A DNA stretch of 64,000 bases from Isoetes taiwanensis (taxonomy: Eukaryota > Streptophyta > Lycopodiopsida > Isoetales > Isoetaceae): the NCBI GenBank assembly GCA_021234155.1, contig JAJEKV010000198.1, forward strand, positions 62,001 to 126,000. Reading direction: 5' to 3'. The notes beneath the pieces were generated by a model. That model was not told the DNA's origin. It was given only the letters and a program-made list of their open reading frames with translations, and searched no databases. Every line of letters begins with the position of its first letter. The stretch's first letter is position 1. A program made the translations under genes and the position numbers. This document shows positions 18,598 through 63,785 of this stretch, piece after piece.

Positions 18598-19293
18598 TTT
18601 TTTTTTTTTTTTTTTTTAGCACACCAGCCCTACCGGGCCTAGAGCCTTTTCTCAAATTCTAGCCTATCCACGTGTAATTTCCATATCATTAAAATCTGAT
18701 GTGGCTTACTTTTTTATTTTATTTTTTTTAATTAAGTGAAAATGTATGCACAACCTTTTAAATAAGGTGAGGATTACATGTAGTTTTGGATTCCATCAAG
18801 ACAAGTGGCTTTAAAGGTTTTAAATTGACTGTATGGGATGGCATGGACTTAAGCAATAGCTAGGATGAATGTGAAGAGCACTCCAGTTGCACAACATTAC
18901 AAATCAAGCTTGTACAAAGGGGTTTAATTTATTATTTTAATATGATAGTCTTATGACCAAGTTATTGAACCTTAAAACATCTTATTTAGAAAATCGAGAC
19001 TATTTTCTGGGGTTTGTTTCAGCCAAGGTCCTAATGTAGATCCGCACAAAGTGCTTACAGCCGGTTGAGTGCCGGTCAAGATCTGTAACAGACAAATAGA
19101 TTGTTCGCACATATGAAAGAGGATCTTCACAAGCTCGGACTGTCATTTGTTTGCTGGCCTTACAGGGTATATAAACAAAGGGTGAGTTTGCACAGTTCGG
19201 CCTGCTTTAAACAGGGCAGTACCAAGTACTGCTTCCGCTTAAGGCAAGGATGTACAAGCAATATTTGCTTGTTCTTCACATACAAGGTGTCGT

Positions 19294-22420: not shown

Positions 22421-22440
22421 GAATATTCTCTCCGCAAATA

Positions 22441-22574
22441 ATCCATCTTTTGAAAACCTGGCAACAATGAGGCAAAAATATGCTATGCGTATCAACTGTC
22501 TTCATGCATCCATCTTTTGAAAACCTGGCAACAATGAGGCAAAAATATGCTATGCGTATCAACTGTCTTCATGC
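22441..22574. repeat. 67-bp tandem duplication
   Basis: The unit starting ATCCATCTTTTGAAAACC at 22,441 repeats at 22,508, and the two units are essentially identical. Confidence 0.9.
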
Positions 22575-23282
22575 ATGTCACAAGTTTATACTATTCAGGA
22601 CATCATGGGCAGTTCATGCATTCTCCATTCAAGGTAAGAAAATTTGCTCATGTTTAATTATTTGCCATAATCAATTGCCACAAGTAGAGCATTCTACCAC
22701 AAGCAGAGCATTCTGGAGTCATATTGAATAAGGATGTCTAGATTTATCCGCGCTACATGTTTTTCTCTGCTTTTAACTGCGCACTTTCTTCTGACACATC
22801 TACATCTAACAGGCCTTCCTAGAGTCCAAGTAACTGGTGGTTCTGAAGGTATAGCAGAGGTTGAATTGAGTGATAGACATCATTTTATTCTTGCTTCAAG
22901 GATCATAAAGTTGTTGCAGAGAACAGCAAGCAGCAGTAGGTTGTTCCAGATGCATTTAAAAATTGTAGATCGGACATGCACTGCACATTTTCTGCATACC
23001 CAAATATCATTGCCCTGGCCAAATTCTCCTATTATGTCTTGCAATTGTGTTCATAGATTCTCTAAACCTAGAATATGCCTTAAGACATGCCAAGACGGCT
23101 TAACAGAATTTCGTATTTTTGAATTACAATGTTCTCTTTATTTTTGCTTCTACATTATGCTGGTTCAATTGCTGGCACTGTCTTCTAAAAATAAAAGTTA
23201 CAAGCCATTGCCCCATAAATTCTTGATACATTTGTTGCTAGATTTCTTCAATTCATATAGGTATATGCCAATTCTATTAATG

Positions 23283-23546
23283 TTGCATATCCCGGGGGTT
23301 TCACCTACTATAAAGGTGATACGCCACGTGCGTTAATGGGGTTAGCAAAAAACCCTCCATATACGTCTTGTCCAACCTTCTAAACGCCCCTTCCCGTATA
23401 CATATTACACTGGATTCCCCCCCAGAAAACCCCCTAGCCAAGCCCCTATCCGTATTTATACATACGGTTTAGGGTAAAAAAACCCCACCCCTTTCACTCA
23501 CATGGTATATATGCCTTAAACTATGTGACATCCCCGGGTTGCATAT
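23283..23546. mobile_element. hAT-type MITE with 8-bp target duplication
   Basis: A 248-base element (23,291-23,538) starts CCCGGGGGTTTCAC and ends GTGACATCCCCGGG, giving imperfect inverted repeats that match at 12 of 14 bases. It is flanked on both sides by TTGCATAT (23,283-23,290 and 23,539-23,546). An 8-base target duplication and short inverted ends fit the hAT superfamily. There is no coding capacity. It is nested inside the Helitron. Confidence 0.75.
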
Positions 23547-25335
23547 GCTATGCTAATTCATACATTTGTATGTCAATCCATTAATGTTGCATATGTAATG
23601 TCGAACAAAATGTTATTGATGCATGGTTTTGCAATAATGCCATAGTATTCACAAGGTTGTGAGTAGACATTTTAAATGAGGCGATGAAACTTGAGGGCTA
23701 TAATTTTAAGTTGCAAAGGGCAATATTGCAGGTGAATACGATGATGATTTAGAATAATATTACGTTGTTTCAAACAAGCAATTTTGCTTCCATACCAACT
23801 TCATACATTTGAATGTTTATTATGTTTTAGTACAAGGGAAATGTGTTACTTAGAGTGTGGCTCCAAATTTAACTTTGCTTCCACAAAGCACCAACTTCAT
23901 ACATTTGGATGTTCATCATGTCTTAGTATAAAAGGAGATGGTTATTTAGAGTGTGGCTCCAAAGTTTTATTCAGTTTGGATCAAAGCTTTTAGTCCAAAT
24001 GCCAAATAAGATTCCTTAATCAGTGTTTTCAAGCACTTAAAGGTCTAAAATTGCACACAATTGTATCAACTAAGAATTGTTTGGAAGATTCGGAAGAGTA
24101 TGGAGATGGCCAATTAAATCTATATGTATGACTATAAGAATTATAAGGGCTTTGTACCAATTCAATGTTCTTATCCTATTTGCCAAGTGCAAAAGAAAAA
24201 ATGTTTATAATCCTACTTCATCCCCCATTGAAATGGATACAATAAAGGTATATTGGTCAAACATCATGATCACTATATCAGTATCAACACATCATTAATA
24301 CTCATGGTTATCTCAATTCTGTCTTTATAATATAAGCTAAAGTCAAGAACAACAATATCTAAGCAATGTCATCAGCCTAAGGCTTCTAAGGCTTTGATTA
24401 TTTGCATGTTTGAACACAAGTGTCATGTTCACGAAAATATCACATACACAAGAAAATCTACCTGTTCAATGTTAGAGCGGACATCATGAATAGTATATGG
24501 TATATCTTTTCCGAACAGGCAATGCTTCGACACCTACAATATGAGCCCATAAAAGAAACCTCTTCAAAATCATACCCCCTCCAGAGTCATATGAATCATA
24601 TTTCTTGGTTTTTCATTTTTGGCCCATAGAGGAACTTTTTTTGCAACCCCAAAAAAAAAAAAAAAAGAAGAAAAAACTCCCAAACTTTAGGAAAACCAAT
24701 CAACATTTTGCTGGCATTATCATCATAATTTGATCAAGTCGGTATTATATTATAATTATGTCTTCATGTGCCACACCTCCCCATCTAGGAATCTTCTTAT
24801 TATAATGCAAATACGACAGCAATTGTAATGTAAATACATACCAAACTGCAAATATGAACATAAAACATAGTATCTTCTTTCTAATCTTATCTTTCTGCCA
24901 ATCTAATAAAAAAATTCCCATTTCATTTTTAAATTTAATAGATTGTTAAGAAGATCCTTAAAATTTTATCGCTACCTACACTACTTATGCCCGGCAACGC
25001 CGGGCACCGTTACTAGTTTTAAATATTAGGCTTACTTTGGTGTTAGCTATAAATGAGAAGGAAAAATTTGGAAACAGATTTGCTAATATTAGCTTTTTCT
25101 ATTTATGGCTACTTGTTGCTATTTAGGCTTCTGGAACAGATCATTTAATTATGTTAATATAGTCTGTTATACCTTTATGATATTAGTACTACTATTGACT
25201 TTATTAAATCAATTAGATTCTTTCGTTCTGATACTAATGGGCTACAAGGGAGGTGCAAGGAGTGACCGGTGATAAACCGAGAGGCTTTATGTATCTTCTG
25301 GCCCTGGATTTGTTACCATTATCATGTTAACAAAT

Positions 25336-26024
25336 TCTAGAATGGGACTCGCAAGAAACCAACAAACCGCCCGATAGATAGGCTTCTCATTCATCTCAGC
25401 AGATTTTCTACAATGGTGGACAGTGGGTAGCCGCCACATGCGAACTACCCACGAAAAATAAAGGGAAAATCCAATTATATCATTTGGACCCCAAAAAATA
25501 CAATGCTAATAGATGATGTACCTGCCGAAAGCTTATCACCGGGATTAAAAAACCCCGCCCTTTCGGGTTTTCGAGGAAAAACCCTAGTGATAAGCCTTCG
25601 GCAAGGGGCTTAGACAAACGTAAGGCATAGAATCGCTCCCAAAAACCCCCGCATGGAGAAGTCGAAAAGATGCCGCTCGCCAACCTGTACCTGCACATCA
25701 CCAACAAAACAAACGAGACAAACATACCAGAGAATAGCATCACCCAGCGGGTGGAAAAAAAAAGCATCACCTAGCGGGTGGAAAAACATGATAAACAGAA
25801 ACTTGTACAAAATACAAAATACAAAGAAGGGGGGGAGGGTGGGTTCAAAGAGAATAAGGTAATCATTGAGAGAAGAGGAAGCTACCGATGAGACGAGGAT
25901 GCGTAAACGCTACCAAATAGCTTAACTCCCAACCAAAAACGGGCATGCGCCACCGCGATGCATGCACGACATGCATGCTCGTCCCATTCTAGAATGGCGA
26001 TCCGATGTCTCGGATCGATGCGAT
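25336..26024 (+). mobile_element. Helentron/Helitron2-like non-autonomous element, unit 1
   Basis: Starts TCTAGAATGGGACTCGCAAG. Near the other end the start is present in inverted form (GTCCCATTCTAGA, about 25,981-25,993), followed by a perfect hairpin (CGATCCGA TGTC TCGGATCG, 25,998-26,017) and GATGCGAT. The insertion site is T/T, as shown by the uninterrupted AAATTCTTGG in block A1. An inverted copy of the 5' end placed inside a 3' hairpin, with T/T insertion, is the described layout of Helitron2/Helentron elements. No protein-coding capacity is evident. Confidence 0.65.
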
Positions 26025-26375
26025 TCTAGAATGGGACTCGCAAGAAACCAACAAACTGCCCGACTACCAGAGAACTTCCTTACAAACTAGGATCGAGGAT
26101 GAAGGTCACAGGACGAGGCCGAAGGCCGGAAAAGGATAGCAAGAAAGAAATGCCAAATTGGCTAAACCAGGCAGGAAGAAGCCCCTCCCCTGCCTGGAAA
26201 CAGTTCAAAGAGAATAAGGTACTGCTGAGAGAAGAGGAAGCGCCGATGAGACGAGGATGCAGAAACGCGCCTGAAATAGCGAACTCCCAACCAAAACGGG
26301 CATGCGCCGCCCGCATGCATGCACGACATGCATGCTCGTCCCATATGGCGATCCGATGTCTCGGATCGATGCGAT
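26025..26375 (+). mobile_element. Helentron/Helitron2-like element, unit 2, head-to-tail with unit 1
   Basis: Begins again with TCTAGAATGGGACTCGCAAG directly after unit 1 and ends with the same hairpin (26,349-26,368) and GATGCGAT. Its middle differs from unit 1 but its last 170 bases or so are closely related (GAGAAGAGGAAGC, CATGCATGCTCGTCCCAT). The pair was inserted as one block into AAAT/TCTTGG. Confidence 0.65.
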
Positions 26376-26461
26376 TCTTGGTTGGATGCAGGTACGAATG
26401 TCTCTCTTCTTCTTGCTTTTCCTTGTCGTTCTTGCAGTATTTGGAATGAAATGGATTTGAA

Positions 26462-27740
26462 AACGTACATGCAACTTTGGTAGCTGAGGTTTACTGGAGG
26501 ACATTATTTTGGCTGACTGAAATTACTCCTAGTCAAGTGGGTTTTACCTGTTATTTGTTTTTTATAAAATCCTGCAAAGTTTTGCAAGGTAATCACTCTA
26601 TTTTCCTAGTTTGACTCTTAGCTAAGAATTTTTAGATGCTGAAATATTACTGGAGTATTTTGGGAAGTGAGCTTACATACATATGATATAAAGTTCTGCT
26701 TTTTATGAGATGAAAAACTAAAGTGCATAACAACAGTAAATTATAGGTCTAAAATTGATTCACTTCTTGGAATGTGTTCTGTTTAATTACAATTTACTTG
26801 GTACAAATGTACGTGGTAGATATGCTGTTGGTATCTAGGTTAAAAATGCTCTTAATAAAGTTGATATTGATCGAATTTTTTTGCCAAACCCTGTACATTT
26901 GTCTTCTTGATTTTCAACTTGCATTAAGGGAAATGGAGATGTCCTGAAAATTCTAATATTTCTGTTAAACTGATATTTAACTAGGCGACTGGTTGGTTCA
27001 GTACTTAACCGATTAAGTTAATAATTGTTCTCATAGTTTAAAAGTTTTTTCAATGGGGGACCATGATCTTAAAAGTCTATTCTAATAATTGAGTTGTTGC
27101 TGATACAAAAAATTAAAATGGGAGTAGTCTTCTTTAATGATCGATAAATAACCAATGTGCATAATAAGACATTAAGGCCTTTGAATTTAAAAAGTTGATA
27201 AGATCTTTTGGCTAGCTGCTAGCAATTAAGGTTATTATTGGCTAATGGTATAACTTTAACTAAGAATCGAGACATAATCTTTAAGATGTACTCTTTTATG
27301 TGAAACCTTTGGTTGTACGAGCTGTAAGTTGACTGGCATATTGGTTAACTAGTAGTAAATGTAGGATATTATTGTTGGAAATTGAATTCAACAAGTTAGA
27401 ATTGTTTGTATTCACTATGGTCCATAAGTAACTTGTTGTTCTTGTTGTTGTTGTTGTTCTATGGTTCATTGTATGGGTCCCATGACCTATTGGTCTCCGT
27501 GGACGTTAAAAAATCTATTCTATTCTATTCTATTGTTAAAAGCAAATAACACTTAGTGGTTGGGATCAAATGCTTGATAGACGAGGGGTTGACAATGTTT
27601 AACTAAATATTAATGGACTTGGATCTTTGTTACGTCATGTGGACTTTTGTATTCTTGGAGATAGGTTACTAAGATCAAAGACATTAAGTACCAGCCTTGT
27701 AAAACCAGTTAGTTGGTCTGGATTGATCAGACTACTTAGG
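26462..27740 (+). mobile_element. LINE 3' end with TTCTA tail, within unassigned AT-rich sequence
   Basis: At about 27,466-27,500 the sequence carries TATGGGTCCCATGACC and CTCCGTGGACGTTAAAAAAT, followed by a (CTATT)n tail. This is the plus-strand form of the LINE 3' end also found at 3,487, 33,150 and 51,240. A (TTG)n run is just upstream at 27,435-27,455. The preceding kilobase has no coding sequence I recognise and may be LINE 3' UTR or older intergenic DNA. Confidence 0.5.
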
Positions 27741-27774
27741 GATTGACCGAAGCAGATGCAATTGTTTTTTTTTT

Positions 27775-28036
27775 TCCTCCCCCTTCTGTTGCGGATGCAA
27801 ATGGCACCATGGCATCCTCAAGGTGCCATTTTGTTATTTTGCTTCCATTGGGGAGGAGGGAGGAGGAGGGAGGGATACACGCCCCATGGCACCCACCAAA
27901 TGGGGTACCCAAAAAAAAAAAAAAAAAAACACCTCCCTGTACATTTGGGGTTGGGGGGAGGGGGGGAGGGCAGGTACATTCCCCAAGCCCAAATGGCTCC
28001 ATTTGGGGGGTGCTAGGGGGGCAGTTATACCCCCAG
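27775..28036. repeat. Palindromic minisatellite, inverted relative
   Basis: Reverse orientation relative to 1-345: it starts with TTGCGGATGCAAATGGC and AAGGTGCCATTTTG, and ends with the CCCAAATGGCTCCATTTGGG segment also found at 9,840-9,925. A-runs inside make several worthless open frames. Confidence 0.65.
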
Positions 28037-28511
28037 GGGGAGTAGGTATTGGGACCGAAATGGGGGTATATTTACTCCCCCTAGCACCAACAGAGGTTAC
28101 AAAATCTGTGGTGCCATCTCTTGAACTTCCAATCATATGCTGGGGTGCAGATAACATTGATGAAGCAGTAGGTGCATTTATTCAGTTGCCAAAGAAGGAT
28201 GTAAGACTGGTTGAGGCTTGTATGCTACAAACATATGTATGATACATATGTACTATTCACGTGTATCATACACCTGCAGAAGATCTACAAATCTATTGGA
28301 TTCATGTGTCTTAAAAATATATGTATGATACATAGGTGCCATACCCGTGTACCTAACACATGCAGAAGGTGTATGATACCGAGTAAATATGTTTTCTAAA
28401 ATATTTCATGGTGTACACGACATATGTATGATACACGGGTACTGTACACGTGTACAATAAAAAAAAAAAGTCCAGTTTACTAAAAATTTTCCCATTATCA
28501 CGAAATTGTGT
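28037..28511. repeat. Copy-2-specific insert with ATGTATGATACA repeats
   Basis: Absent from block B1. Begins with GGGGGAGTAGGTATTGGG, then a short frame (28,090-28,242) resembling a captured exon (LELPIICWGADNIDEAVGAF), function unknown. Then there are three copies of a near-palindromic motif TATGTATGATACA near 28,235, 28,320 and 28,422, each followed by a GTGTAC-type motif. No terminal repeats or target duplication could be fixed. Confidence 0.5.
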
Positions 28512-28599
28512 TTGATTGGGGTGATCCCCACCAGGATTCAAAACCCACTGGCTATCATCGTGTGGATTGGGGTGCAAGTCCCACCAACTATGCCTTAAA

Positions 28600-31106
28600 A
28601 AAGGAAAAAAAAGTTCAAATTGAGTTGTTTCATAAAGTATGTAAGACCACATGGTCAGTATGCACTTCAAAATGATTCCTTAAAAGATAATGTCTCCAAA
28701 GCTCTAAGTGCATGTACAATTGCCAACAATTCCTTATCATGAGTGGGATAATTTCATTCTGCATCATTCAGTTTATAAGAAATATATGCACATACATGCT
28801 TGTCTTGCATCAACACAGCTCGTGTCCCTTCCCCACTAGCATCTGTCATAACCTGGTACATCTTATTTGGATCTGCCACTTTTAAAGCATGAGCATTTAT
28901 CAACTTTTCCTTTAAATTTTTGAAAGCTCTCTCACATTGTTCTGTTCTGCCCATTGAAAAGATATATTTGATTTTGTAAGTCTTGTCAAAGGACTTGCTA
29001 TTGTAGAAAAGCTTTTGATAAATTTCCTAAAGAACCCTGCAAGTCCTAAGAATGAGGGCACCTGTTTTGGGTTTTTAGGAACTGACCATTCTCTCACTGC
29101 CTCAACCTTTCTGGGTCAGGTTTAATTCCCTCTGCTGAAATAATATGACGTAAATAATCCATTTTGGTGCTACAAAATGAACACTTGACAGATGTTCTCT
29201 ATGCTCTTCCAAATTCTTCGAATACACAAGTATATCATCAAAGAACACGAGGACAAACTTATCAAGGTATTCATGGAAAATATCGTTCACTAGACACTGA
29301 AAAGTTGCTGGTGCATTTGTTAAGCCAAAAGCCTTGTATATATCCTTGTTCTAGAAGTTCTTTTAACTGTTTTTTTAATTCCACTAACTCTGACAAAGCA
29401 AATCTATATGGAGCTTTTGATAAAGGAGAAGCTCCTGGAACCAAATCAATTGCATAATTGACATATCTTCGAGGAGGTAACTCCGTCAACTCTTTCGGAA
29501 TCACTTCCTTGAACTCCCCAAGGATGTTCTGCACATCATTCATGTATACTTGATTAATTTCTCCTGAGCCTTTGAGTACAAGCAACCCCAACATTTCATG
29601 CTTCCTAATTGACCTCTTGACTTGCTTGCGACTAATGGGCTTAGGAGTAAAATACTGCTTATTCAATCCTTCCAGTGTATATAGCTCTTGATGTTCCTTA
29701 GTTTTTACTCCCACAACTCTTTCATGATAATCTACTATAGCATGCACCTCGTTAAGCCATTCTAGCTGAAGCACATGGAAATTTGTAATTGTAGGCATTT
29801 CTTGCACTTTCAATTTTAATGTATGCATATACTCGCTAGTAGCTTTTTGCTTATCATCAGCCATTTTCACCATTCTTAAGGCTTGTTGATTAATATTCAA
29901 CCCAAACAACTTAACGAGCCTTGGTGAAATAAAATTGTGAGTGGCTCCCATATCAATCAAAATACTAAAAGGAACTTCATTGATTTTACCTTCAACCTGC
30001 ACTACATGTGCCTGCAGTTGCGCTGTCCCTTGATCGATTGCTGCACAAACTTGTATAACTTCCTCTAAATCCATGAAACTTGCTTGATTAGCTCTCATTG
30101 CCCCTAAATTTTGAGATCCTTGAACCTTGGCATTTGAGTTATTCTTCTTAGGACAAAAATGTGCCCTATGCCCCTTTTGCTTATAGTAAAAACATAAACT
30201 TTCCTTCATGCACTTATCATATTCAACTTTCTACTTTTGTTCATCCATCTGTGACATTGCATTCAAAGGTAACTTAGGCCGGGGCATTATGAAAAATTTG
30301 ATGAACCTGAGAATTTGATTCATCTCTATAATTCTTTTGAAATTTTCCTCTTTGTGGCTCTCTACGATTGACATTCTTCTCCTCCTTAAGGATACTCTCG
30401 AAGTATGACTTGTGCCCCGCTTCTTCCAAGGTGAGTTGATCACATCCAACTAATTTTTGATCTAGTCCTTGCACGAAGCGACTAGCTAATTCTTATAGTT
30501 AAAGACTAATTATTTTTTATAATACTTCGTTTAAAGATAAGATAAGATAAGAACGATGCTTGCTCAATAGAAATAATTCCTTGGCTTTGAATCTAACGGA
30601 CAATGTCGTTTCAAAGTGGAGTATAGTTATCCAATAATTGCCCTTTCTGTTTATACTCCAGGAATTTATTCATCTGTATGATATGAAAAGGAAGGTGGAC
30701 AATATTTTGATACGAAGAGTTCCTTGAAAGTCTCCCAAGCTACTTCCTCATCAGTCACCTTATGTGCTGTCTTATGACGATTCCACCACATCAAAGCATT
30801 CCCAGTCAAACTCAATAGCACTACTCCCACCTTTTCTTCTTTAGGAACTTGTCTTACAACAAAATAATTTTCAGCCTTCTGAATCCAAGCTTCTGTCTTA
30901 ACTCCATCCTTATCGAAACCATCAAATAGTTTCAACTTGTATTTCTTGGCAATCTCCTTTAAAGCAGATGACTTCTTTTGTGCCTGAGAACTTTTCTTCC
31001 CTTGGCTCATAGGCATACATGATGCCGTATTGTCTTCTCTATTCTTTTTTCTCTGCCAGAGTGCGAGCTTCGGGGCATAGGGGATTCTCGTTGGTGGCTT
31101 CTCCAC
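28600..31106 (-). mobile_element. Ty3/gypsy retrotransposon fossil, copy 2 (broken)
   Basis: Duplicate of the fossil at 10,095-12,807, with gag-like, CCHC knuckle, protease-like, reverse transcriptase and RNase H-like pieces in the same order. The protease-like and N-terminal RT pieces lie in one frame at 29,271-30,209. An additional piece matching the RT-RNase H connection is visible at 28,912-29,097 (FLGLAGFFRKFIKSF). No LTRs and no integrase are seen. Broken, with several breaks. It came with the duplication of block B and not by a separate insertion. Confidence 0.85.
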
Positions 31107-32308
31107 CTATCTGTTCTCAATATCTGTGGACCTCCAACATCTCTATATTTATTCAATCAAGATTAATTAAGAAAATTTCCCCCTTACATAGTTTGTCCTT
31201 GTCGAAATGTCTCAATTTGCATTTGCAAGTTTTGCATTTGCTCTGCGCTAGCTCGATTCAGGTAAATTGGTTCTCTATGCGTGTTTGGAAGCTTAAGAAA
31301 GCTTACAACATAGAGGATTCTAAAGTTTTCCTCATTGCGTCAAAACTACTCTCCTCTCGATTGGCATTACTAGCAGCATGATGAGGACTAGATATATGCT
31401 TCCTAGGAGGTAATTCCATTTGAAGAATACATAAAAATTTTCGTACTCAATGAACTCTCTAGGTCAATCGAAAAAACATCAAACTATCTAAACTTTCAAA
31501 ACAGATTCCTATCATATTCTTGTTTCCATGATTCTTATAGAGGGCGATGACATAGTCACCACATTCCTTACCTATTCCCATGTCCTCATTCATTCCATTT
31601 ATTGATTTGCATCCATTAAGCAAGCAAATAATGAACTAGGTTAATTAGCTAATAACAACACGAAAATTTTAACATTAACAGTTAGCAAACCACCAGTTTC
31701 CCATTCCAGTCCTACACTTGTAAGGCCTGCCTCTACTAGCAACCACCCTCACCCTATCGGGTTGGCCTTGCTGATTGGGCTTTGGCTCGGGCCTCCCTCT
31801 TCATGGAAAAGGAAGCTTCTCGCTTATGCATGATGTCTGGTCGAGGCCGTTTTCGTGGAGGCCCTTCAGTTTGGTCCTTCCAAGCGAGTTTGTCATGTGT
31901 GTGACCAGTAGATGACGGGGGCACCTGGACAGCAAACGAGACCTGGGCCTGGGCCTGGGCTTGGGGCTGAAGTGTGTCTCCTTCCAAGTCTGGGTTTGCA
32001 CATATGGCCATGGCAAGCACACAACTGAAAAAGTGTCAATTTGAGCACTGAAACAAAGCCAAGCAGCTCTCTGACACTAGATGTGTGAGATACAGCCCGT
32101 TGAAGTGTCTATCGGCTGCCACAGAAACTCTAGCATACAGCCCAAAAAAGTGCCGATTTGAGCACTGAAACAAAGCCCAACATACCAATTACTAGTTTTA
32201 ATTTATATGAAGCGAAAGTGGAAAAAGCTTACATTAAATTCTGTGCGGCATCCTTTCTTTCTGTTGTAGTCTTAGCCTATGCTAAATAATCTTCCATCAA
32301 ATAGAGCA

Positions 32309-44672: not shown

Positions 44673-47664
44673 GATCCGAAGCACCACGAAATAGTCTGGA
44701 TGTATGTAACAAGCCCGCCGAATTCTTCAGAACAATCAAGAATGACGACATTCCGGTAAGTCTTGCGCTGGATTTGGTTCTGGGTTATGGTTTTTTTTTT
44801 TTTTTTTTAATGCTATAAGCTCGTTTGAAGCAGTTCGGTGTAGAAATTCCAATGCCGGAAATGGATTTGGAAGAAACGAAAAGCGGGCAGAAAAATTCGC
44901 CCAGTGTGATTGCAAAGCTAATGGGCCTCGATCCAATGCCGGTTCAATCCCAGAAAATGGGCGGGCCGAGGAAACCTCTCAAAGATCTAAAGAATAAACA
45001 GTTTATCGATATAGATTCTACAAAAAGCGGGCCTCTCAGGCCTTTGTCCCGCCTTGGCTCAACAAGGAATTTGAAAACAGAGCAGGAAAACATGGAGCCA
45101 AGGAAAAGTGAAGTGATGAAGTCTGTTCACAGATTATCTCAACGCGGCTCTGTTGTAAGGCAAGTAGCAGATCCAAAAACGGCCAAAGATTTTCTGGGCG
45201 CGATGGAACTGTTGCAATCTAACAAAGAATTTTTTCTTCGATTCCTTCAAAACCCAGACTCGGTTTCTATGAGGCAACTTGCGGAGATGCAGATGCAACA
45301 AGCAAGATCAAGGCAATCAAGGCGTAGCAAACAACCGGCCCAACAAGGGAGCAAACAAAAAGAAGAGGCAGGGCCTCCTAAGAAGGCAAGAGAGGTAAGG
45401 GTTCCATCGTCTTCTTCTTCTTCTTCGACCAATAAAAAGAGAATGCCCAGCAAAGAGCCCCAACCTGCAAAGGCATCAAAAAGAGACATATCACCCCATG
45501 CCCGAAATCGAGGCCGGAATCAATGCCAAAGTAGTCCCCTTGCATCTCACAACCAACCTATTCGTGAACAGAGCCCAAGCAAAATAGTGCTTGCAAAGCC
45601 ATCCCCATCCGTAGCTTCATCTAACACCTTTACTCCACGAGCCCCTGCATTGAGCAGAGAATCTAAGGACCCCAGTAAAATAGTTCTTGTAAAACCATCC
45701 CCATCTATAAGCTCATCTAGCAGCTTTACTCCTCGATTGAGCAGAGAATTTATGGAGTCTAATAGCAAACACAGGCAGAATTCTAACAGTGAGCATTTGA
45801 CAAATCCAACCAGAGATAGAGGGTCAGGCAAAAATTCAGGTACTACAAATGCAAGCAATGATCCTAAAGCAATTGCTAAACAACTGGTAAGAGAGACCGC
45901 CCCTGCTGAATTGAGGAACAGTTTTTCTGTAAAGTTGAAGTGTGAAGAGCCTGCTAATGCTATTAGTACAAGTGCCATTAGGCCAGTTCAAAGCAGGGAG
46001 GCGGAGGTGATGTCAAGAAAGCTTGTTTCAGGACGAAGTATGAGCAACCCAAATTCACCTCCATCCAGAAAGGAGCCTTTAACTATTGATAGTGCAGAAG
46101 GAAGGGCAAGATTGATGGAAAAGTTGTTGATGGTTCAAAACCAGCAGCGCAAGGATTTCTCTGTGTCAAGTCAAATTAATGGCAACCACAACATCCCCGA
46201 GAATCACATCCTTTTTCAGTCTGCAGATGCCATAGATGGGAGCAAGAGCGACAGGTTCCAGAGAATCAATGTAAATGTTGAAGCTGAAGAAGCTGTCTGT
46301 GGCCAAGTTGAAACTGCCAACCATGTATCAGTAGTATTGACAAGGTCAAGATCACTTCCAGGTTCCTCTACAGCTGCTCTCAGGTGCTCCCAAAATGTGC
46401 AAATTCATCCACAACAATCACATGAAATTAGTGATTTGTTTTGGAGCATTAAACATTCTAATATAATGAAGCAAGTAGTTCCAAAGCACGAGCGTGTAAC
46501 TACTTCGAAGTCTTCAGAGGAACAGGCATCTGAAAATCCCAGTCAGCTGTGTAGAAGCTCTAGCATTAAGGACACACTACAATACAGTACCATTTCTCAG
46601 GTAGTGGTTCATTTAAATAGGCTTTTGTCATTTCAATTAAACTGTCAAATTTGGCCCTCATCGACGTTATGCTTTACCAGGCTGTAGATAAAGAGCCACC
46701 TTCACAACCTAGCAGGCCAATGCCCTTGATGGCAAATAATTCGAGTGGTGATTCTGTCATTGCCAAGGCTGAGCTGAGAAGCCCAGTTTCAGTTTTGGAT
46801 ATCCCATTCCAGGATGGAAGCCCAAGTCCTGTGGACATAAAGAGTCGTGCAACTGACCTTGAAGGTATGAACAATTTGTGCCTTCCTTCTAATTTTAGGA
46901 AGAATTTTGTTTAACTGTTACATATGCATCTGAAGATTCAGTTCTCACATATTGGCTTCATTTACACAGAAGTTCGTGCCCATCTCATGGAATTGGACAA
47001 CAGCCAGCCAGCTTATACAAAGGCATTGGATTTGAAGACCACAGATGCAGCGGAACTTGCTGAAAGCCCAGGTCCTAATGATACAATAATAGCATTTCAT
47101 GGATTGCTTCAGCAAGTGCCAGATGGAAAATCTGATAAAGAAGTGCAAGCCTGGGGAAACCACAAGGACATGCAGTATGTCAAGAAGGTCCTTACTGAGG
47201 CAGATCGGTCACAATGGTACTCTCCGAATTGTCCGCTTAATCCCTCTATATTTGAGACGGTGGAACAACATTACAAACATGGATGCAGTAATCAGGGGGG
47301 CAGGACAAGAGCAGCAGATTCTTTGAATAGGCGTCTTATGTTTGATGTACTGAATGAAGTCTTGTTCTGGAAATTACAACCATGGACAGATTCTAAGACC
47401 CCATCCAATAATTGGAAGTCAATTCTTTCCTCTCCACCAAAAGGGGAAAAGCTTATGCAGGATATGTATTTGGAATTAAGTGGGTTTCATAGCTCACATT
47501 GTGAGCCTGTAAATTTGGTTGAGACATTGGTTGACAAAGACCTGTCTAAAAGTCAGCATTGGACTTCTCAGGAGGAGGTAGAAAGAATTGGTGTTAAATT
47601 AGTCCAATTGCTTTTCAATGACTTGGTTGAAGACGTCATTTTAGACTTAATGACCATCAGATGA
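44673..47664 (+). CDS. LONGIFOLIA/TRM-family protein (DUF3741 motif plus DUF4378), 5' end unresolved
   Basis: Plant-specific TON1-recruiting-motif (TRM)/LONGIFOLIA protein family. Members associate with cortical microtubules and the TON1/TTP complex and influence cell elongation and organ shape. Likely exons are 44,673-44,755 (ending at GTAAGT), about 44,831-46,600, 46,681-46,864 and 46,970-47,664 (stop TGA). All introns are GT-AG, and the frame is kept across each junction. Visible regions are EFFRTIKNDDIP in the first exon, the VARLMGL-type motif as VIAKLMGLDPMP at about 44,906-44,941, a long S/K/P-rich disordered middle, and a C-terminal DUF4378-like domain at about 47,310-47,660 (RRLMFDVLNEVLFWKLQPW to LLFNDLVEDVILDL). 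About 900 codons are visible, close to the family's usual size. The true N-terminus was not found. It is the only convincing intact host gene in the window. Confidence 0.85.
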
Positions 47665-53520: not shown

Positions 53521-54829
53521 TAACACCCTAATAGCTATACTAAGTTAATGCAAATATAATAGACGTTGCACAGCTCCTGTTAAGTTAACATTTAACCTAA
53601 CATAATATTTAAAATGTGCATTCAGACATGAGCGGTTAAGGTTTAGTTAAATTAACATTTAGCATAACAGAATTTGTTAACAATCTCGTTCGCACACAAA
53701 GCTGTTAAGGTATTTCAGAAAGCTATTCGTTTTACCAACATTCAGTCAAAAGAATCACACTTCGATACATCCATTTAACTTATTTATTTAACAAGTCGTA
53801 AAGCAGGCATCCCAATGGCTTTGAAAATCAAAATAAATGAAGAGAACATGTATCATATGAAAAGCTCTGCTTGTGATGGCATAAGAGCTCTGCTTGTGAT
53901 GGCAAAATCAGGATCCAGATGTTCTGGCCCAAGTGGCTAGATGGATTGCTAATTTTGCAAAATCTGAATCTCGGACAGCAGCATGTTACTAAAGTATCAA
54001 TAGCAGTCCCCCTACAAAGCTCCACGATGATATCTTAAGGGGCCCTCAATTGTACCTATATCTTTCTATTTTCCATTGATCTTAATAGTACTGGTGTACC
54101 TCGTTTCACAGAAAAATAATATGTCAAACTTGGGGTAGATGGCAGTGATTTTGCCCCATACTGTTTTGACAAGCTGGTCAGATAGATTGGACACTCGCCC
54201 TAAATAATAGAGAAATATTAACTCTCATCCTAAATGATAGAGGAATCAACATCCTATCCATATTTTCTTCATTTTGCATAGAAAACCAAGGTAAAAAAAA
54301 AAGACTCGTAATCTAATGACTCTGCAGATAAAGGAACTGATAACAGAAGTAGGTTACATGGGACAACATGTGTTGACTTTATATCTGAAGCCTTATCAAC
54401 ACCACATTTCATGATATGCATCATCTTCTATGGAACAAAGCTATGAAAAGATGACAACATCATATTAGCTCTCGAAAAATGCATCTAGAAATAACATATT
54501 AATAGAAAACCACTCTGCATATCTGAAATACTAAAAATCTCATATTATCAGAAATATTTGAGACATTTTAATCTCGGTAGAGACAAGACAATCTTATTTT
54601 TGGCAAATTAAAACAAACAATGCCAAATTTCTACTTCCTTATTAGAATAAATATAGCTTTACTATTAACAAATAAGCTTCCAACTTTATCGTCAATGGTC
54701 TAATTTTGGCTCATTCTCTTCAGATCTACAGATTTCTTAGTCTGATTTGCAGAAAGATGAAAACCCAAAACAAAACTTAAGAGCAAGCAAACGAACTGGT
54801 ACCATTAGAGTTTTTTTGAGGTCAAATAA
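53521..54829. other. No gene recognised
   Basis: AT-rich sequence. A phrase AGCTCTGCTTGTGATGGCA is tandemly doubled at about 53,862-53,905. A TTAACATTTARCMTAACA phrase recurs near 53,580-53,665. No domains were seen on either strand. Confidence 0.5.
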
Positions 54830-55153
54830 GGGCCTCCTAAGAATATATTAGGGGGGCCGCCACGTAGGATCCCGAACCTAGCTTCCCCCCTCCATATCTA
54901 AATTTCACTCTCCCCTAACCTAACTACCTAACCTCCGAACCTAACACCCGAACCTAACCCCGCAATCATTATTTCCGAACGACCTGAATATTTGATGATT
55001 ATATCTAGGATTTTCGTTTTCCCACCTTCGAGCTTATGCCATCGAGCTTCAGCACCATCGATCGAGCTTGCCCTCGCGCCATCGACCTTGCCATCGCGCC
55101 ATCGAGCGCCAACGATCTTGCCATCGCGCCCAGGCAGTTTTTGAATTCGAATT
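54830..55153 (+). promoter_or_regulatory. C-rich leader with CCTAAC and CCATCG repeats
   Basis: A short stretch (TATTAGGGGGGCCGCCACGT at 54,847-54,866) is followed by irregular CCTAAC repeats (54,915-54,962) and then repeats of GCCATCGAGCTTGCC type (55,035-55,135), directly upstream of the ATG at 55,154. It may be the 5' leader or promoter of that frame, or the left edge of the unusual 55-64 kb region. Assignment is by position only. Confidence 0.3.
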
Positions 55154-55891
55154 ATGGCGGATTCTTACCAGCAAATAGAGCGAAATTTTCTGTTTGTTGG
55201 CAAGAATCTTCCTAATTCTAATCTCCGCTCCGGTTCTCGGTCTTTTGCAACGTCAATGGCAAAGGTATTTGGTTTCCGAGTCGTCATTGCATTCTTTTGA
55301 GTGTTCTTCCTTCTAATACTTCTGTTTCAGGATCAAACTAATTTCGAGGGTCAATTTAGAGTGCAAGTGCCAAAAGAATGCCTGCCTTACAGGAATAAGT
55401 TCACTTGGAAGCAACCAATAGATGAAGATGCATTGCGAGCTTCTGGAGCCATGAATATAGACCTCTGGGCTAAAGGCCAACTGTATCCATGTGATCCTTT
55501 CACTCGAGCCCATCCAAACTTCCACTCTGCATCCGGTCTTATTGAATTTGCTTGTAAGGGACATCAAGGGTTACTAGGTTACTGTAATAATTTGGTTAAT
55601 GGTAATACTGATCCACATTCGTGTGCCATGTATAACCACTTGTATGGATTCAATTGCAAAGTTTTATCAGATGTTAATCAGCTCCAACAGGCGAATTACT
55701 TTCTGTCTCAACAATGCCGCAAGCTCAATGAATTGGAGGTAGAAAATCAGAAATTGGTGACTGAGATGAATGCACTGCAGCAAGGAATGAAGAGGGTTGC
55801 GCAAGAAAATGATTCCCTTCACAAGCGGGTCAAACGCTTAAAAAGAACTCCACTGGGGATCGGGGAGAGGGCAAAAACCCGAAGCCCATAA
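55154..55891 (+). CDS. Unrecognised protein with C-terminal coiled coil
   Basis: The proposed first exon, 55,154-55,264, starts with ATG (MADSYQQIERNFLFVGKN), ends AAG/GTATTT, and keeps frame with an exon from 55,331 after TTCTGTTTCAG. The implied intron of 66 bases is very short for a plant. The second exon encodes a mixed region with several Cys and His residues (about residues 75-165: CDPFTRAHPNFHSA, then CKGHQGLLGYCNN) and then a leucine-rich heptad region (about 165-215: KLNELEVENQKLVTEMNAL) ending in basic KRVKRLKR. This looks like a nucleic-acid-associated or dimerising protein, but I do not recognise the family. It is followed at once by another frame on the same strand. It may be part of a mobile or virus-like element, so I leave its state as possibly broken. 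Confidence 0.5.
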
Positions 55892-55908
55892 ATATATTAG
55901 CCCCCGGG

Positions 55909-56439
55909 GTGGAGGCAAAAAAAAGGGTCATGGCTATTAGAAAGCTTGTTGATCCAAATCTTGCAGAAGAAAATAAGAGAAAACCTGCTAATATTGCCGG
56001 TTTATTAAAGAAATTAGTTACTAAAGATGATGTATTGAGAATGTTAAAGCTTCCTAGTAGCATTCAACTTAGGAAAGCTGTAGTACATCAACTGTTGCGG
56101 GAGTTGGGGAACAGTCAAACCTCAGAATCAATGCAAGAACTGTGTGACAATGTCGGAATAAGTAGGCAAGCTTATATTGCTTTGTTCAGATGCTTGCAGG
56201 ATGGCTTTAAACAACAAGGCATTACCAAAACTATTCTACTACCAAGGATGACTAGTGTGATGACTTGTAGGTCATCGAGAAACAGACAAGTGCAAGAGCT
56301 TCTTGGTGATATGTATCAGCTGACCAGCAGTGTCAACTTGGATACATTGGCATCCTATACCAAAGGTAAGAAGAAGTCGAAGTTTGGTGATACTTTCTGC
56401 CTTAATGAAAATAACAATTCTTTGGATAGACTTAACTAG
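55909..56439 (+). CDS. Unrecognised basic helical protein region
   Basis: A frame of about 175 codons follows the coiled-coil frame after only a few bases on the same strand. It begins VEAKKRVMAIRKLVDPNLAE and continues with a helical segment (LLKKLVTKDDVLRMLKLPSS). A possible DNA-binding-like segment follows (LCDNVGISRQAYIALFRCLQ, which reads like a helix-turn-helix). It ends KGKKKSKFGDTFCLNENNNS. The first in-frame ATG is at 55,930. I do not recognise the family. The close spacing suggests it belongs with the upstream frame, but I have not joined them. Confidence 0.4.
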   Translation: MEAKKRVMAIRKLVDPNLAEENKRKPANIAGLLKKLVTKDDVLRMLKLPSSIQLRKAVVHQLLRELGNSQTSESMQELCDNVGISRQAYIALFRCLQDGFKQQGITKTILLPRMTSVMTCRSSRNRQVQELLGDMYQLTSSVNLDTLASYTKGKKKSKFGDTFCLNENNNSLDRLN

Positions 56440-56618: not shown

Positions 56619-57270
56619 ATGATAAGTTTTCCGTCCGGTCGAAGATCACATTTGGTGGGTTGGTTTATTTCAGGTACCGTAGAGGAAAATCACATTATCT
56701 TTGAAATGGGTTTTGATCAAACACCCATTCCCACAATGATTGCCTCTCCGGAATCGGGAGAAAAACTTGCACTTCCGGATATGGTGAGTACGAGGTTGAA
56801 TGGCATCTTGTTTGCAGATTTGAAGACAATAAAATGCATGTGAGAATGAAGCATGGTCTTTGGTAAGACTACTCATGCTTGTCCCTCTTGTCTCTATGCA
56901 AGAAGAGATTCAGCTGGATTGGACAAGAGTACATTATACTTTTCCAGGATGAGCCACCAAATAGAGAAGAGAAGGACACAACCTTGATGCCAATTCTGCC
57001 AATTCCGTTAAGAAGAGTACACATATGCACCCTTCATGCTTTCTTGAGAATAATAGACAAGATGGTTTACATGAGTATCCTGTTTGCTTGGAATAAATCA
57101 CCCCAAAGCTCTAGGGAAGCTGCCATGCATGAAGTTGAAAAGCTGTTATCTAATGTGGGACTTCATGGTGGGCATTACAAAATACTTCAAGATCCAAAGG
57201 TATCCGGTAAGGTTCCCCTGAAACCCAGTATGGGTGGTCCAAAAGCTAAGAGGTTTTGCCTCCCTTGAAA
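56619..57270 (+). pseudogene. Unrecognised decayed gene, pieces with HICTLHAFLRIIDK
   Basis: Pieces on the plus strand, in more than one frame, look like the continuation of the same gene cluster: 56,619-56,843 (GTVEENHIIFEMGF, then SPESGEKLALPDM), and 56,879-57,268 with RRVHICTLHAFLRIIDKMVY and LLSNVGLHGGHYKIL, then KPSMGGPKAKRF. A Cys-containing stretch (CPSCLYARRDSAG) lies between them in another frame. The pattern resembles a protein of a mobile element rather than a host enzyme, but I cannot name it. It is broken in a few places. Confidence 0.4.
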
Positions 57271-57979: not shown

Positions 57980-58375
57980 ATTGCGCGATTGGCCCGGTGC
58001 GCGAAATATGGGCCTCAGAACTAAACGGATCCCATTATTTGCCGCACCGTAGCCACGGTCTTGAAATAGGCTTCAATAATTTGTAATCGAGTCGATTTTC
58101 GCGACCGTGGCTACTGATGCGAAAATAGGCCCTTCAATAATTTGTAACTGAGTCGATTTTGCACCGTGGAGACGGTGCGAAATATGGCCCTGTAACTAAA
58201 CTGGACCCACGTATTTTGCACCATAGCCATGGTGCGAAATAGGCCCTTCAATAATTTGTAACTTTCGATTTCGATTTCGCGGGCTACGGTGCGAAAATAG
58301 GCCCCTTCAATAATTTGTACACGAGTCAATTTTCGCGACCGCGGGCTACGGTGCGAAATATGGGCCAGTAACTAG
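57980..58375. repeat. Palindrome array 1
   Basis: Seven near-palindromes of core CGCACCGTGGCCACGGTGCG (variants include GCACCATAGCCATGGTGCG at 58,219-58,237) recur every 58-60 bases. The spacers are similar to each other (AGGCCCTTCAATAATTTGTA, then ACTGAGTCGATTT). The copies have drifted, many at CpG positions. The array lies between a plus-strand gene region (to about 57.8 kb) and the 3' end of the minus-strand family A gene at 58,494, which is a convergent intergenic position. Confidence 0.88.
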
Positions 58376-58493
58376 AGAATATTAACATATTAGAGAACAT
58401 ATTAGAGAATATTTATAGAACATATTAACACGGTATCATATGAAATATTTATGATAGATAGCAAAGGTTACTAGAGACCACGGCAGTATGTCC

Positions 58494-59140
58494 CTAGTAA
58501 CCTTCCCCTAGGTTCCTAACCCCTTCCCCTTCCCCTTCCCCTTCCCCTTGCCTGCAAGGTGTAACCCATGCATCTGGGTTTGGAGTCAAAAGCTCACGCT
58601 CCTCCCAGCCTGATTCTTCCCACCATATGGGGTACCTAGTCATTAGAAAAAGTAATTCCACAGGATGATACTCACGGAAGAAGAGCGGACCCAACTCCAC
58701 AAAACCGTTGTACTCGTTGTAGTACACCCTAATAAGGCCATACATCTGTCCCTTAGAAATTTCATGAATGAACTCTGATATGTATGCATCCAGAGAGTAT
58801 GCTAAATATCCAGCACGAAGAAGAGGCCTCAATTGCTGTAGCATCTCGTCCAGATAAGGAGGGGGTTCAAGAATTCCCCTCATTGCAAGTCTCCTATAAC
58901 ATTCAGATGGATTAATTTCCATCAGTGGCTCATGACCACAATCAAATCGCTCCAGAATGAAGTTGATCAACTCCATTGTAAGCTCCTTGGTGGGACTGTG
59001 GCGCAACCTCCACTCCAAGAAATGGTCCCAATAGCTCATCCATTCCAGGCCGCACAGAATGCCTGGGGCATGCTTGCAGGCCTTCTGGAGTAGCCCAGGG
59101 AGGATTGGGTCCAATCATTTGCACAAGCAAGCAAGGAACA
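58494..59140 (-). pseudogene. Family A gene, copy 1 (unrecognised, probably broken)
   Basis: A minus-strand frame encodes a mostly helical protein of about 200 residues containing ELTMELINFILERFDCGHEP, then MEINPSECYRRLAMRGILEP, AGYLAYSLDAYISEFI, and near the end LLFLMTRYPIWWEESGWEER. The C-terminus runs into a (GE)n stretch coded by CCTTCC repeats (58,520-58,550). Copy 2 at 60,023 matches in all these blocks (LINFI, EIN.S, LEPP..L, G.(L/M)AYSLD.Y, then W...E/D.R.L), so this is a real, conserved protein family and not a chance frame. Function unknown. The start is upstream at about 59,130 (QMIGPNPPWATPEGLQAC matches copy 2's start) but is not in one continuous frame. Confidence 0.6.
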
Positions 59141-59600: not shown

Positions 59601-59699
59601 TCCAATAATGTTGAAGTATAATACTAATACTGTTGAAGTATAATACCAAGAAAGTTGAAGAATAATACCAATAATGCTGAAGTATTATACCCTTTGGTG

Positions 59700-59810
59700 G
59701 TGGCGAAAGATGGGCCCGTAACTAAACTGGATCCACGGTGCGAAATAGGCCCTTCAATAATATTTAACTGAGGCGATTTCGCACCGTGGCCACGGTCCCG
59801 AATATGACCA
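59700..59810. repeat. Palindrome array 2
   Basis: One and a half units: a half-palindrome CCACGGTGCGAAATAGGCCC at 59,732-59,751 and a full one, CGCACCGTGGCCACGGTCCC, at 59,779-59,798. Spacers are of the same type as in array 1 (CTTCAATAATATTTAACTGA). It lies about 200 bases beyond the 3' end of family A copy 2 and on the 5' side of copy 1. Confidence 0.8.
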
Positions 59811-60022
59811 CAAATAAAACATTCACATGAGAAAATACAAGGAAAATGGTAGAAGAAACCATTCAATTACACTAAAAGTGTAAGATTGCCAAGATAATAC
59901 ATGATAATATGAGGATGTTACTTAATTACACGGAAATCACTTGCTTATATACTTAATTTCTATGAAAATCTTTATACCAGTCCAGTGGAGTATCTTCACC
60001 TGTGATATGTATGTATTATGTG

Positions 60023-60530
60023 CTATGTGCTATGTAGCCATAGGTCACGTGTATCCCAAGGAATTGTATCCCAGTCGGGGAATTTAGACAGTAACCACAG
60101 GTAATGGAAGTCGTAAAGTTCAATGAGGATATAAATCCTATTCTTCTCATTAGTAGGAATGACCAGAGGCACATACTGATCCAGAGAGTAGGCCATGAAA
60201 CCATGGAAAAGCATGTCCTTCAACTGTTCTAGCCTATCTTCTAAATCTGAGGGGGGTTCAAGAAGTCCCAAAGCACTTAGAGTGAACCTTGCTTGACTCG
60301 AATTGATCTCCTCCAGTGGAGGGAGATGACGAGTATAGCGATCGATAATGAAGTTGATGAGCTGCCTTGCAAGCTCTGTGGTTGGACCTGACGCCATCGA
60401 TGCTCCCAAAAGTTGTTAAAAAAATCATCAAAAGTGCACGTATTAACTCTGCCGCATGCTTGCAGGTATTCCGGATCAGCCCAGCGAGGATGTTCTTGCA
60501 AAGTTACCATTTGCAAGAAACTAGTGGAGC
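60023..60530 (-). pseudogene. Family A gene, copy 2 (unrecognised, probably broken)
   Basis: Minus-strand paralogue of 58,494-59,140. The start-like segment (MVTLQEHPRWADPEYLQACG) aligns with copy 1's QMIGPNPPWATPEGLQAC. The main block at 60,023-60,409 has TELARQLINFIIDRYTRHLP, EEINSSQARFTLSALGLLEP, GFMAYSLDQYVPLVI, then YLWLLSKFPDWDTIPWDTRD. The two copies share roughly a third of their residues by eye, so the duplication is old relative to the block A and B duplications. No domain is recognised, and the frame is not continuous. Neighbours are family B on its 5' side and palindrome array 2 on its 3' side. Confidence 0.6.
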
Positions 60531-61556: not shown

Positions 61557-61749
61557 GCTTCTTCATTCATGTATGCTATGCCTCTTATATGAGTTCTATG
61601 TACATGCTATGCCTCTTATATGAGTTATAAGTATGTAACCATAAGTGATACATGTGATCCGTCTATTTACCGCACATTTTCAATTTGGAAAGCTCTTGGC
61701 CATTTTCCTTACGTCTAGATTCTAAATTCAGTTCAGCATTCTCTTCGCG

Positions 61750-61965
61750 ATGTGTGGAATAGTCTGTTTCGCACCGTAGTCACGGTGCAAAATTGCGCCC
61801 TCCAAAAAATTTGGAACCACTATTTTCGCACCATGGCCACGGTGCGAAATAGACCTTCCCAAAGAATGTGGAATAGTCATTTTCGCACCGTGGTGGCGGT
61901 GCGAAATAGACCTTCCCACAGAATGTGGAATAGTCATTTTCGCACCGTGGCCACGGTCAACACTA
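61750..61965. repeat. Palindrome array 3
   Basis: Four palindromes: CGCACCGTAGTCACGGTGCA (61,770-61,789), CGCACCATGGCCACGGTGCG (61,826-61,845), CGCACCGTGGTGGCGGTGCG (61,884-61,903) and CGCACCGTGGCCACGGTCAA (61,942-61,961), spaced 56-58 bases apart. The spacer here (AGACCTTCCCAAAGAATGTG, then GAATAGTCATTTT) differs from that of arrays 1 and 2 while the palindrome core is the same. The position is between convergent 3' ends (family B copy 2 and the H3-like gene). Confidence 0.92.
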
Positions 61966-62089: not shown

Positions 62090-62668
62090 CTAAGGGAGGC
62101 ATCCACGAAAGTATCTAGCTAAGGCATAGTCATTGCCATGCACAGTAACACGTCCTCTGTGCACACAACAGTGGACACTGTCCTCAAAGAGGCTAATTAG
62201 ATGAGCCTCTGCTGCCTCTTGCAGTATGTCCAAGGCCTCTGCTTGGATTCTATTCACCTCCTCCTCCACCATCGGGACCAAGTCTGGTGCTCTGTCCCTC
62301 CTCTTCCTCCTTGATTCCTTCCTCCTCTCAATAATTTCCTGCATCTCAAACCTGACCATTCTAGCGAAGGCAAGCTTGGGAATCAGAGGCTGGGTGCGTG
62401 CCTGCCAGTACCTAATCTCCCTCAAAGCCTGAGTGCCAGGAGGAGCACCATTTATCTTCTCAGGGCCACCATATCTAACACTAGGCTCCCCTTCCTTAGG
62501 CTTCCGCTTATTACCAAGCTTATCAGTCTCCTTGGCTGCATCTCTCTCAGCTTGTCTCCAACTAGGAACAAGCCTAGGAGGCTTTGCCGGCTCGGATTTC
62601 TTCGACCTAGATTTCAGCTTTCGCTGGGGCTTCCTAGTACCTGTTCCACTCGAACTAGGGTTCCGGGA
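62090..62668 (-). CDS. Divergent histone H3-like protein
   Basis: The minus-strand open frame ends TAG at 62,090-62,092 and is clear of stops back to 62,668. It shows the full H3 fold in order: PGTQALREIRYWQ (canonical H3 PGTVALREIRKYQ), LIPKLAFARMVR (LIRKLPFQRLVR), ILQEAAEAHLISLFED (ALQEAAEAYLVGLFED) and GRVTVHGNDYALARYFRG (KRVTIMPKDIQLARRIRG). Between helix 1 and helix 2 it has an insertion of roughly 25-30 residues, very basic at first (ERRKESRRKRRDR) then acidic. The N-terminal tail is K/R-rich but lacks the conserved ARTKQTARKS and KAPRK sequences, and no in-frame ATG precedes the fold. A TAG just inside the open frame's 5' edge could be a splice acceptor, so the 5' end is unresolved. 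H3 normally pairs with H4 in nucleosomes; no H4-like frame is seen here. It is neither canonical H3 nor typical plant CENH3. The context suggests a mobile or virus-like origin. Confidence 0.88.
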   Translation of the reverse strand, partial: SRNPSSSGTGTRKPQRKLKSRSKKSEPAKPPRLVPSWRQAERDAAKETDKLGNKRKPKEGEPSVRYGGPEKINGAPPGTQALREIRYWQARTQPLIPKLAFARMVRFEMQEIIERRKESRRKRRDRAPDLVPMVEEEVNRIQAEALDILQEAAEAHLISLFEDSVHCCVHRGRVTVHGNDYALARYFRGCLP

Positions 62669-62699: not shown

Positions 62700-63520
62700 C
62701 TTTGGGGCGGTGATCCTGCTGATCTTTCTTTGGACCGGTGATCTTGTCTTCTTTGCCCGTCGATCCTGGCGATCATGCTAGACTAGGCGATCTTTGGTCA
62801 TCTTTGCACTTCCATAGTCTGCGGTTCTTCCTCCCCCACCACCGCCAAGCGTTTGGGAATGCAATAGTGGTCCCAACGTCCGAGGCGAGGGAGATAGCCG
62901 ATTCATGAGCCCTTTGGGCACCATGGCCTGGTCAACCGGGCCAAAGCACCGGCCGTGTGTAGAACCCAGTGGTTTCAACATGTAATCCAGCTCATTACAC
63001 AAGAACTGGAATGGCCATGACTCCGTGCCGGACATGGATGACATCAACCTGGGCCACACGACGTATGACCCGACGGCTTCCTCCAATGTCTCCGCTCCAG
63101 GGGTGGGGAACGGCAGCCGATTTTGTTGGATCGTGTGTCCTTTGCTACCCAATCTGATCATCACGGAACTAGAATATTGTGGCGGGCGGTGGCGTCGCGG
63201 AAAACTCCTTCCCCAACAACCTTACCGGGGCCAAAGCAAGGTGACCGACTAGGAAGCACGGTCGGGTTTTCGAAATATTCGTCCACACTATTATTAATAG
63301 TGTGGATGACATTTCCAAGGGTTTGCCCGAAGTCTTCTGTAAGGACAACCTCCTCTACGTCCATCTGCTGGCTTGTGATGGGAATAACTGCCTCGCCCTC
63401 TGTGATTGGAATAGAAGTCTCGGCCTGCTAGTAATGACCTAATCAACATTCTGGCGCTGGTCAAGCGCCTCATTTTGTGGGATTTCAGAGCTAGCGCCTT
63501 TCATGGACATTAGCGGATTT
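62700..63520 (-). pseudogene. Unrecognised decayed gene upstream of the H3-like gene
   Basis: Minus-strand pieces in more than one frame: SMKGASSEIPQNEALDQRQN near 63,500, then ITSQQMDVEEVVLTEDFGQT and IHTINNSVDEYFENP (63,161-63,364), then ETLEEAVGSYVVWPRLMSSM, FQFLCNELDYMLKPLGSTHG and PSPRTLGPLLHSQTL (62,778-63,164). The pieces run in the same direction as the H3-like gene and end just upstream of it. The stretch 62,680-62,780 has repeated GATCTT/GATCCTG phrases and codes basic peptides in two frames. I do not recognise the protein. It appears broken in a few places. Confidence 0.4.
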
Positions 63521-63589: not shown

Positions 63590-63785
63590 TGTTACGGTAG
63601 CCACGGTCTAAATCAGGCTGGTCAAAAGCTGTCGACATTACGTTTTTTTGCAATCGTAGCCGCGGTCTTGAAATAGGGGCGATCAAAATTGCCGACCCTT
63701 TGTTTTTGCACCAGTAGCCCGCGGTCTTGAAATTGCCCGATCAAAAGCTGCCGACATCTGTTTTCGCGATTTGTAGCCACCATTA
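63590..63785. repeat. Palindrome array 4 (degenerate)
   Basis: Four weaker copies: GTTACGGTAGCCACGGTCTA (63,592-63,611), GCAATCGTAGCCGCGGTCTT (63,651-63,670), GCACCAGTAGCCCGCGGTCT (63,708-63,727) and CGCGATTTGTAGCCACCATT (63,765-63,784), again 57-59 bases apart. The spacer type is new (GATCAAAAGCTGCCGACATC). The core has lost much of its symmetry, often at CpG positions. Confidence 0.7.

Follow-up and report, generated by a model that had tools for sequence, protein, structure and literature searches.

Few proteins are as conserved as histone H3, and the presence of a divergent H3-like gene in the genome of Isoetes taiwanensis raises the question of what such a gene serves: the plant, a virus, a mobile element or nothing at all. 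The gene lies on the minus strand at positions 62090-62668 of a 64,000-nucleotide stretch of DNA (hereinafter the window, C1016:62001-126000 of the host assembly of 1,658,258,908 bases in 1110 contigs), and all coordinates below refer to the window unless another location is given.

Multiple lines of evidence indicate that this ORF, which comprises 192 codons open from stop to stop (62093-62668) and a stop codon, encodes an H3-type histone fold. It matches the Pfam Histone family (PF00125) with an E-value of 9.8e-16 and the best H3 chain in the PDB with an E-value of 4.7e-17. The protein database holds 28 relatives of it, none of which exceeds 45-50% identity in that search; in the fold comparison, P0001 is the best match, at 55%. 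A profile built from 28 H3 relatives scores the ORF at 110.5 bits, compared with 5.5 bits for the next of the 2075 ORFs in the window and a top score of 7.2 bits among 1000 shuffles of the H3 protein. Over the whole ORF, codon usage is closer to that of the TRM gene of the window (see below) than it is in the other five frames (z of 5.5 versus shuffles). When only the fold is allowed to drift neutrally, 131 of 2000 runs still end without a stop, so that an open frame counts for little on its own. The landmark strings ALREIR, LAFARMVR, LQEAAEA, LFEDS, HRGRVT and LARYFRG are read in this order, and identity to canonical Arabidopsis H3.1 amounts to 48% over 95 fold columns. Thus, the original prediction of a divergent H3-like gene with four H3 landmark segments in order is borne out, and so are the two departures from canonical H3 on which it dwelt, an unusual N-terminal tail and a large insertion in loop 1.

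With respect to the insertion, the spacing from R72 to Q85 is 35 residues, compared with 12 in canonical H3 and 13-14 in the three plant CENH3s compared; the approximately 23 extra residues, encoded at 62264-62332 (minus strand; 75% purine), have limits that depend on the alignment. In a structure model with a mean pLDDT of 69.4, helices are predicted at 62396-62434 (aN), 62300-62377 (a1), 62159-62278 (a2) and 62108-62137 (a3), all on the minus strand, and the insertion reads in this model as a lengthening of helices 1 and 2. The tail (about 62453-62668, minus strand) lacks the canonical H3 tail sequence. No in-frame ATG precedes the fold in the window copy, and splice scoring of 48 models for a first exon gave none that is compelling.

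A search of the host assembly with 661 bases around the H3 ORF yielded 207 candidate places, 40 of which were scored. All 40 match the query over 590-661 of its 661 bases, the window copy at 100% and the other 39, which are spread over many contigs, at 91-96%. Long flanks were retrieved for nine of these 39 copies and short flanks for the other 30; in every one of the nine, the homology with the window copy extends well past the H3 ORF, into the neighboring genes and arrays. The original prediction had proposed to look for further copies with the same neighbors and palindromes, and its suggestion that the gene belongs to a mobile element is supported by the dispersed copies, the shared flanks and the common inverted ends described below. 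Eight of the 40 copies, the window copy included, are open over the 192 reference codons and 32 are broken; in some copies, the H3 frame is open further upstream than in the window. The further suggestion of a pseudogene holds in part, inasmuch as the window copy has no start codon. The largest deletion in any of the 40 copies does not exceed 13 nt, and hence the loop 1 insertion is retained in all of them. A subgroup of four copies (L044, L048, L051 and L058) has a different H3 tail and keeps the fold; the tail is rich in glutamine and aspartate in L048 and L058.

The H3-like gene is therefore one copy within a dispersed plant element of approximately 12.9 kb with inverted ends. As delimited by the homology among copies and by the ends themselves, the element extends from 54803 through the window end at 64000 to coordinate 67671, 12,869 bp in total, and homology starts at the same base in copies c1, c4, c5, c6 and c8. 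The terminal inverted repeat at 54803-54834 (plus strand), which begins with CATTAGAG, is 94% identical over 32 columns to the reverse complement of the opposite end, and both ends of the window copy carry the inverted terminus CATTAGAG(T)nGA(G/A)(G/A)TCAAATAAGGGCC. Among ten copies searched for the end motif, five (c0, c1, c2, c5 and c8) have both ends, with end-to-end lengths of 12,869 (window), 12,994, 13,037, 14,264 and 17,925 bp; three (c4, c6 and c7) have one end, and two (c3 and c9) have neither end by motif, their ends perhaps being diverged, lost or outside the fetched stretch.

Dispersed copies with common ends and terminal inverted repeats are the features of a DNA transposon. No target-site duplication was found in four of the five two-ended copies, and in c5 it would be at most 2 bases, a pattern at odds with the usual cut-and-paste classes unless the copies were rearranged afterwards. 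The palindromic repeat arrays within a large plant element, which may resemble CACTA subterminal repeats, suggested a CACTA element, but the ends read CATTAGAG rather than CACTA, CACTA-like 8-mers and ends occur at chance level, and a CACTA-type 3-bp duplication is absent from the five two-ended copies; this candidate was accordingly rejected. Because the two-ended copies also show no 8-bp duplication and no hAT match was found among the ORFs scanned, the element cannot be filed as hAT.

The gene content of the element is consistent with the duplicated small genes and palindrome arrays noted in the original prediction, both of which are real and lie in the same element as the H3 ORF. On the H3 strand lie a gene to the left of H3, beyond the window, an ORF upstream of H3, H3 and two orphan paralogues (58497-59114 and 60026-60415, both minus strand; 36% identity, E-value of 1e-23), the former of which has no Pfam match and no relative among 99 candidates in the protein search. 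On the opposite, plus strand, a gene in pieces (55301-55888, 55813-56436 and 56867-57265), recognizable as ORFs in several copies, reads as transposase-like from its pattern rather than from a family match, given that Pfam yielded no transposase family above the cut-off. Indeed, none of the eight element ORFs scanned has a Pfam match above the cut-off (best E-value of 0.0064). Palindrome arrays at 57995-58386, 59698-59816 and 61744-61962, the last with 57-bp units, sit between the element genes; additional, weakly matching palindrome units (E-values of 0.23 and 2.3) occur at 63623-63726, and a 58-bp tandem repeat spans 63622-63764. Upstream of H3, two ORF pieces (62781-63221 and 63161-63364, minus strand) open into the H3 frame in c5 and L058, in which the frame reaches up to 291 codons in total, so that the H3 could form the final part of a larger protein. 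Two further candidates were discarded: the upstream ORF appeared to us to resemble the plant domain DUF8039, for which Pfam gave no match, and profile comparison gave no backing for a second histone fold in the left gene.

Is the H3 fold of any use to the element? With copy c3 as the reference of the pooled comparison, the fold shows 295 silent and 429 replacement changes, a dN/dS of 0.43, compared with 0.88 ± 0.07 in neutral simulations under the same mutation spectrum, none of 300 of which is as low; because these simulations are built on a star tree their significance is overstated, although the contrast between fold and tail is still drawn within the same copies. For the tail, the corresponding values are 0.73 and 0.81 ± 0.09, with 59 of 300 simulations as low. 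Pairwise ratios for three sets of pairs, inside each of two copy groups and across them, are 0.58 (528 pairs), 0.51 (21 pairs) and 0.55 (231 pairs) for the fold, 0.66, 0.67 and 0.59 for the tail, and 0.56, 0.94 and 0.82 for the loop 1 insertion, which points to weak constraint on the latter. These results support purifying selection on the fold during copying and no detectable constraint on the tail. Given this difference, the H3 part appears to have benefited either the element or its carrier; in view of the gap between the observed and neutral values for the fold, it probably served the element, though most copies are broken. We read the pattern as a fold that was useful while the element spread, a tail and perhaps an insertion that were free to change, and copies that are now decaying.

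We consider it likely that this repeated element of approximately 12.9 kb carries an H3 fold kept by selection; with less certainty, its product would enter chromatin. The most likely function of the H3 part would be to help a protein of the element enter nucleosomes or imitate them. An H3 with a non-canonical tail and a charged loop 1 insertion could mark or package element DNA and, since the tail lacks the canonical H3 sequence, would perhaps not take up the host H3K9 mark. According to PMC549713, loop 1 of CenH3 contacts DNA and directs targeting; by analogy, the charged insertion would be placed at a DNA-contacting or targeting site. The gain to the element might be escape from H3K9-type silencing or steering of its insertion. 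This whole chain is the least certain portion of the explanation: the product, perhaps the C-terminal end of a larger protein made by the element, would pair with host H4 and so enter chromatin.

The chief rival to an H3 that serves the element is passive capture by transduplication, in which a host H3 or CENH3 gene would have been taken up once and amplified as cargo without a role. We consider this unlikely and nonetheless the explanation to be taken most seriously after our own. The nearest precedent comes from fungi: as described in two reports (PMC3538342, PMC6710886), hAT elements have multiplied H3 in Pyrenophora tritici-repentis and Pseudocercospora fijiensis, the former with 26 copies of H3L, 23 of which seemingly are able to code, with ESTs, and the latter with 784 H3-like sequences, inactivated by RIP save the original. 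The plant element resembles these in having an H3-like gene that lies between inverted ends and is multiplied with the element; it differs in its plant genome, its size of about 12.9 kb, its palindrome arrays, the constraint on the fold among its copies and an H3 that is far more divergent, both in identity to canonical H3 and in its long loop 1. Capture would also fit an H3 frame that is free of introns here, compared with the seven exons given for Gossypium CenH3 in PMC4308911, the broken state of most copies, and a tail that evolves as if neutral. On this account, the low dN/dS would stem from a small number of master copies, from common ancestry or from biased mutation, but the value for the fold is about half that obtained in neutral simulations under the same mutation spectrum, and the fold is preserved in both groups of copies although their tails differ. 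In the literature searched, H3 capture was met only in fungi and no plant counterpart of an H3-carrying transposon was found; one may still be published, and this is not proof of novelty in plants.

That the gene is the CENH3 of the host, or some other H3 variant of the plant, and lies by chance among repeats is very improbable, although the sequence itself offers reasons to consider it. As working criteria for CenH3, the literature lists an insertion in loop 1 (PMC7052976) and the absence of Phe84 and Thr107 (PMC7598501), and the changes in the window H3 agree with the criteria of PMC11633173 as well. In addition to the longer loop 1, the window H3 has Ala in place of the conserved alpha-1 glutamine (Gln68), Ile in place of Phe84 and Ser in place of Thr107, and its tail and fold are divergent. 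These hallmarks, in keeping with the centromere-type variant that the original prediction listed among its alternatives, initially led us to a single host CENH3 gene, a reading overturned when all 40 scored places matched. The hallmarks of CenH3/CENP-A are thus present, but a multi-copy gene within an element, with at least 40 dispersed copies that share inverted ends and are mostly broken, and without a start codon in the window copy, contradicts a single host centromere gene. In three trees, the window H3 forms an end branch of 2.1-2.4 with no supported neighbor; L001, P0012, P0019, P0024 and P0028 were left out of the two later trees because of their branch length, insertions or identity. 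The data do not reject a grouping of the window H3 with three plant CENH3s (p of 0.66; window end branch of 2.37), and p is 0.56 when P0001, P0003 and P0022 are added and 0.136 for a clade with four canonical H3 rows. Judged by its sequence, the window H3 is CENH3-like in hallmarks, with kinship to CENH3 neither supported nor rejected by the trees.

Histones occur in large DNA viruses, and a viral origin was likewise entertained in the original prediction. A gene of a virus or an endogenous virus is the least probable source of all, given that no relative of the window H3 was found in the viral contigs searched or in phage records, no viral protein name matched the scanned element ORFs above the Pfam cut-off, and the one viral contig recovered with another, broader query (L001) encodes a fused histone protein only 26% identical to the window H3 and differently built; with giant-virus histones, the element shares solely the circumstance that a mobile genome carries an H3 of its own. 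The viral open frame of L001 occupies 343-1446 of that contig and has its H3-like part behind a part that is histone-like by eye.

A second search of the host assembly, with the canonical-like H3 protein P0002, yielded 8611 candidates, 150 of which were scored, and all 150 match. Fifteen do so over the full length at 85-87%, and L071, the only one of these that was read, proved to be a canonical H3. In the remaining 135, the match covers most of the query with 76-86% identity, and 44 of these non-canonical rows lie in open frames of at least 400 aa. In assembly G000, the two of these that were read, L069 (C1065:6858366-6858692) and L070 (C974:15275218-15275538), mark 409-aa proteins that start with MAITK. 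An N-terminal stretch that matches nothing in Pfam is followed in both by an H3 at the C-terminus (Pfam Histone, 3.5e-41 and 7.2e-41). When L069 is compared with L070, the N-terminal part shows 58 silent and 29 replacement changes (dN/dS of 0.13), and the H3 part, in this one pair, eight silent and no replacement changes. From its copy number and dispersal, with 150 of 8611 candidates scored, we infer that this second family is mobile. By joining H3 to another protein and, in the pair compared, keeping the H3 constrained, it adds to the case for an H3 that works for its element. A clade uniting the window H3 with L069 and L070 is rejected (p of 0.0098, with a very long window branch), and therefore H3 was perhaps gained twice. 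We advance a broader hypothesis, the chances of which we would put slightly below even: at least two separate mobile-element lineages in this genome encode their own selected H3, one of them possibly in thousands of copies, which would give the element a nucleosome or chromatin tag of its own for protection or steering. An element that holds its own H3 fold under selection while letting it diverge to this extent would represent a novel means by which selfish DNA handles chromatin silencing, and a natural experiment on the changes that an H3 can tolerate. The data hint at plant transposons that bring along a chromatin protein of their own; an element-borne H3 is a possible source of divergent, centromere-like H3 genes, and H3-like or CENH3-like matches in plant genomes may be element genes.

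As for the DNA around the element, the window appears by its content to be land-plant DNA. It contains a plant-type DUF3741/VARLMGL/DUF4378 (TRM) gene in two open stretches (44819-47661, plus strand), which has no relative among 7987 candidates in the protein database, and copia-, gypsy- and LINE-type pieces, all of which we take to be characteristic of land plants. There is also a tandem duplication of about 18.3 kb (5-14010 and 18244-32308), 95-100% identical in the reported stretches, and a long C/T-rich tract (1542-3097) with many tandem repeats and a strong strand skew.
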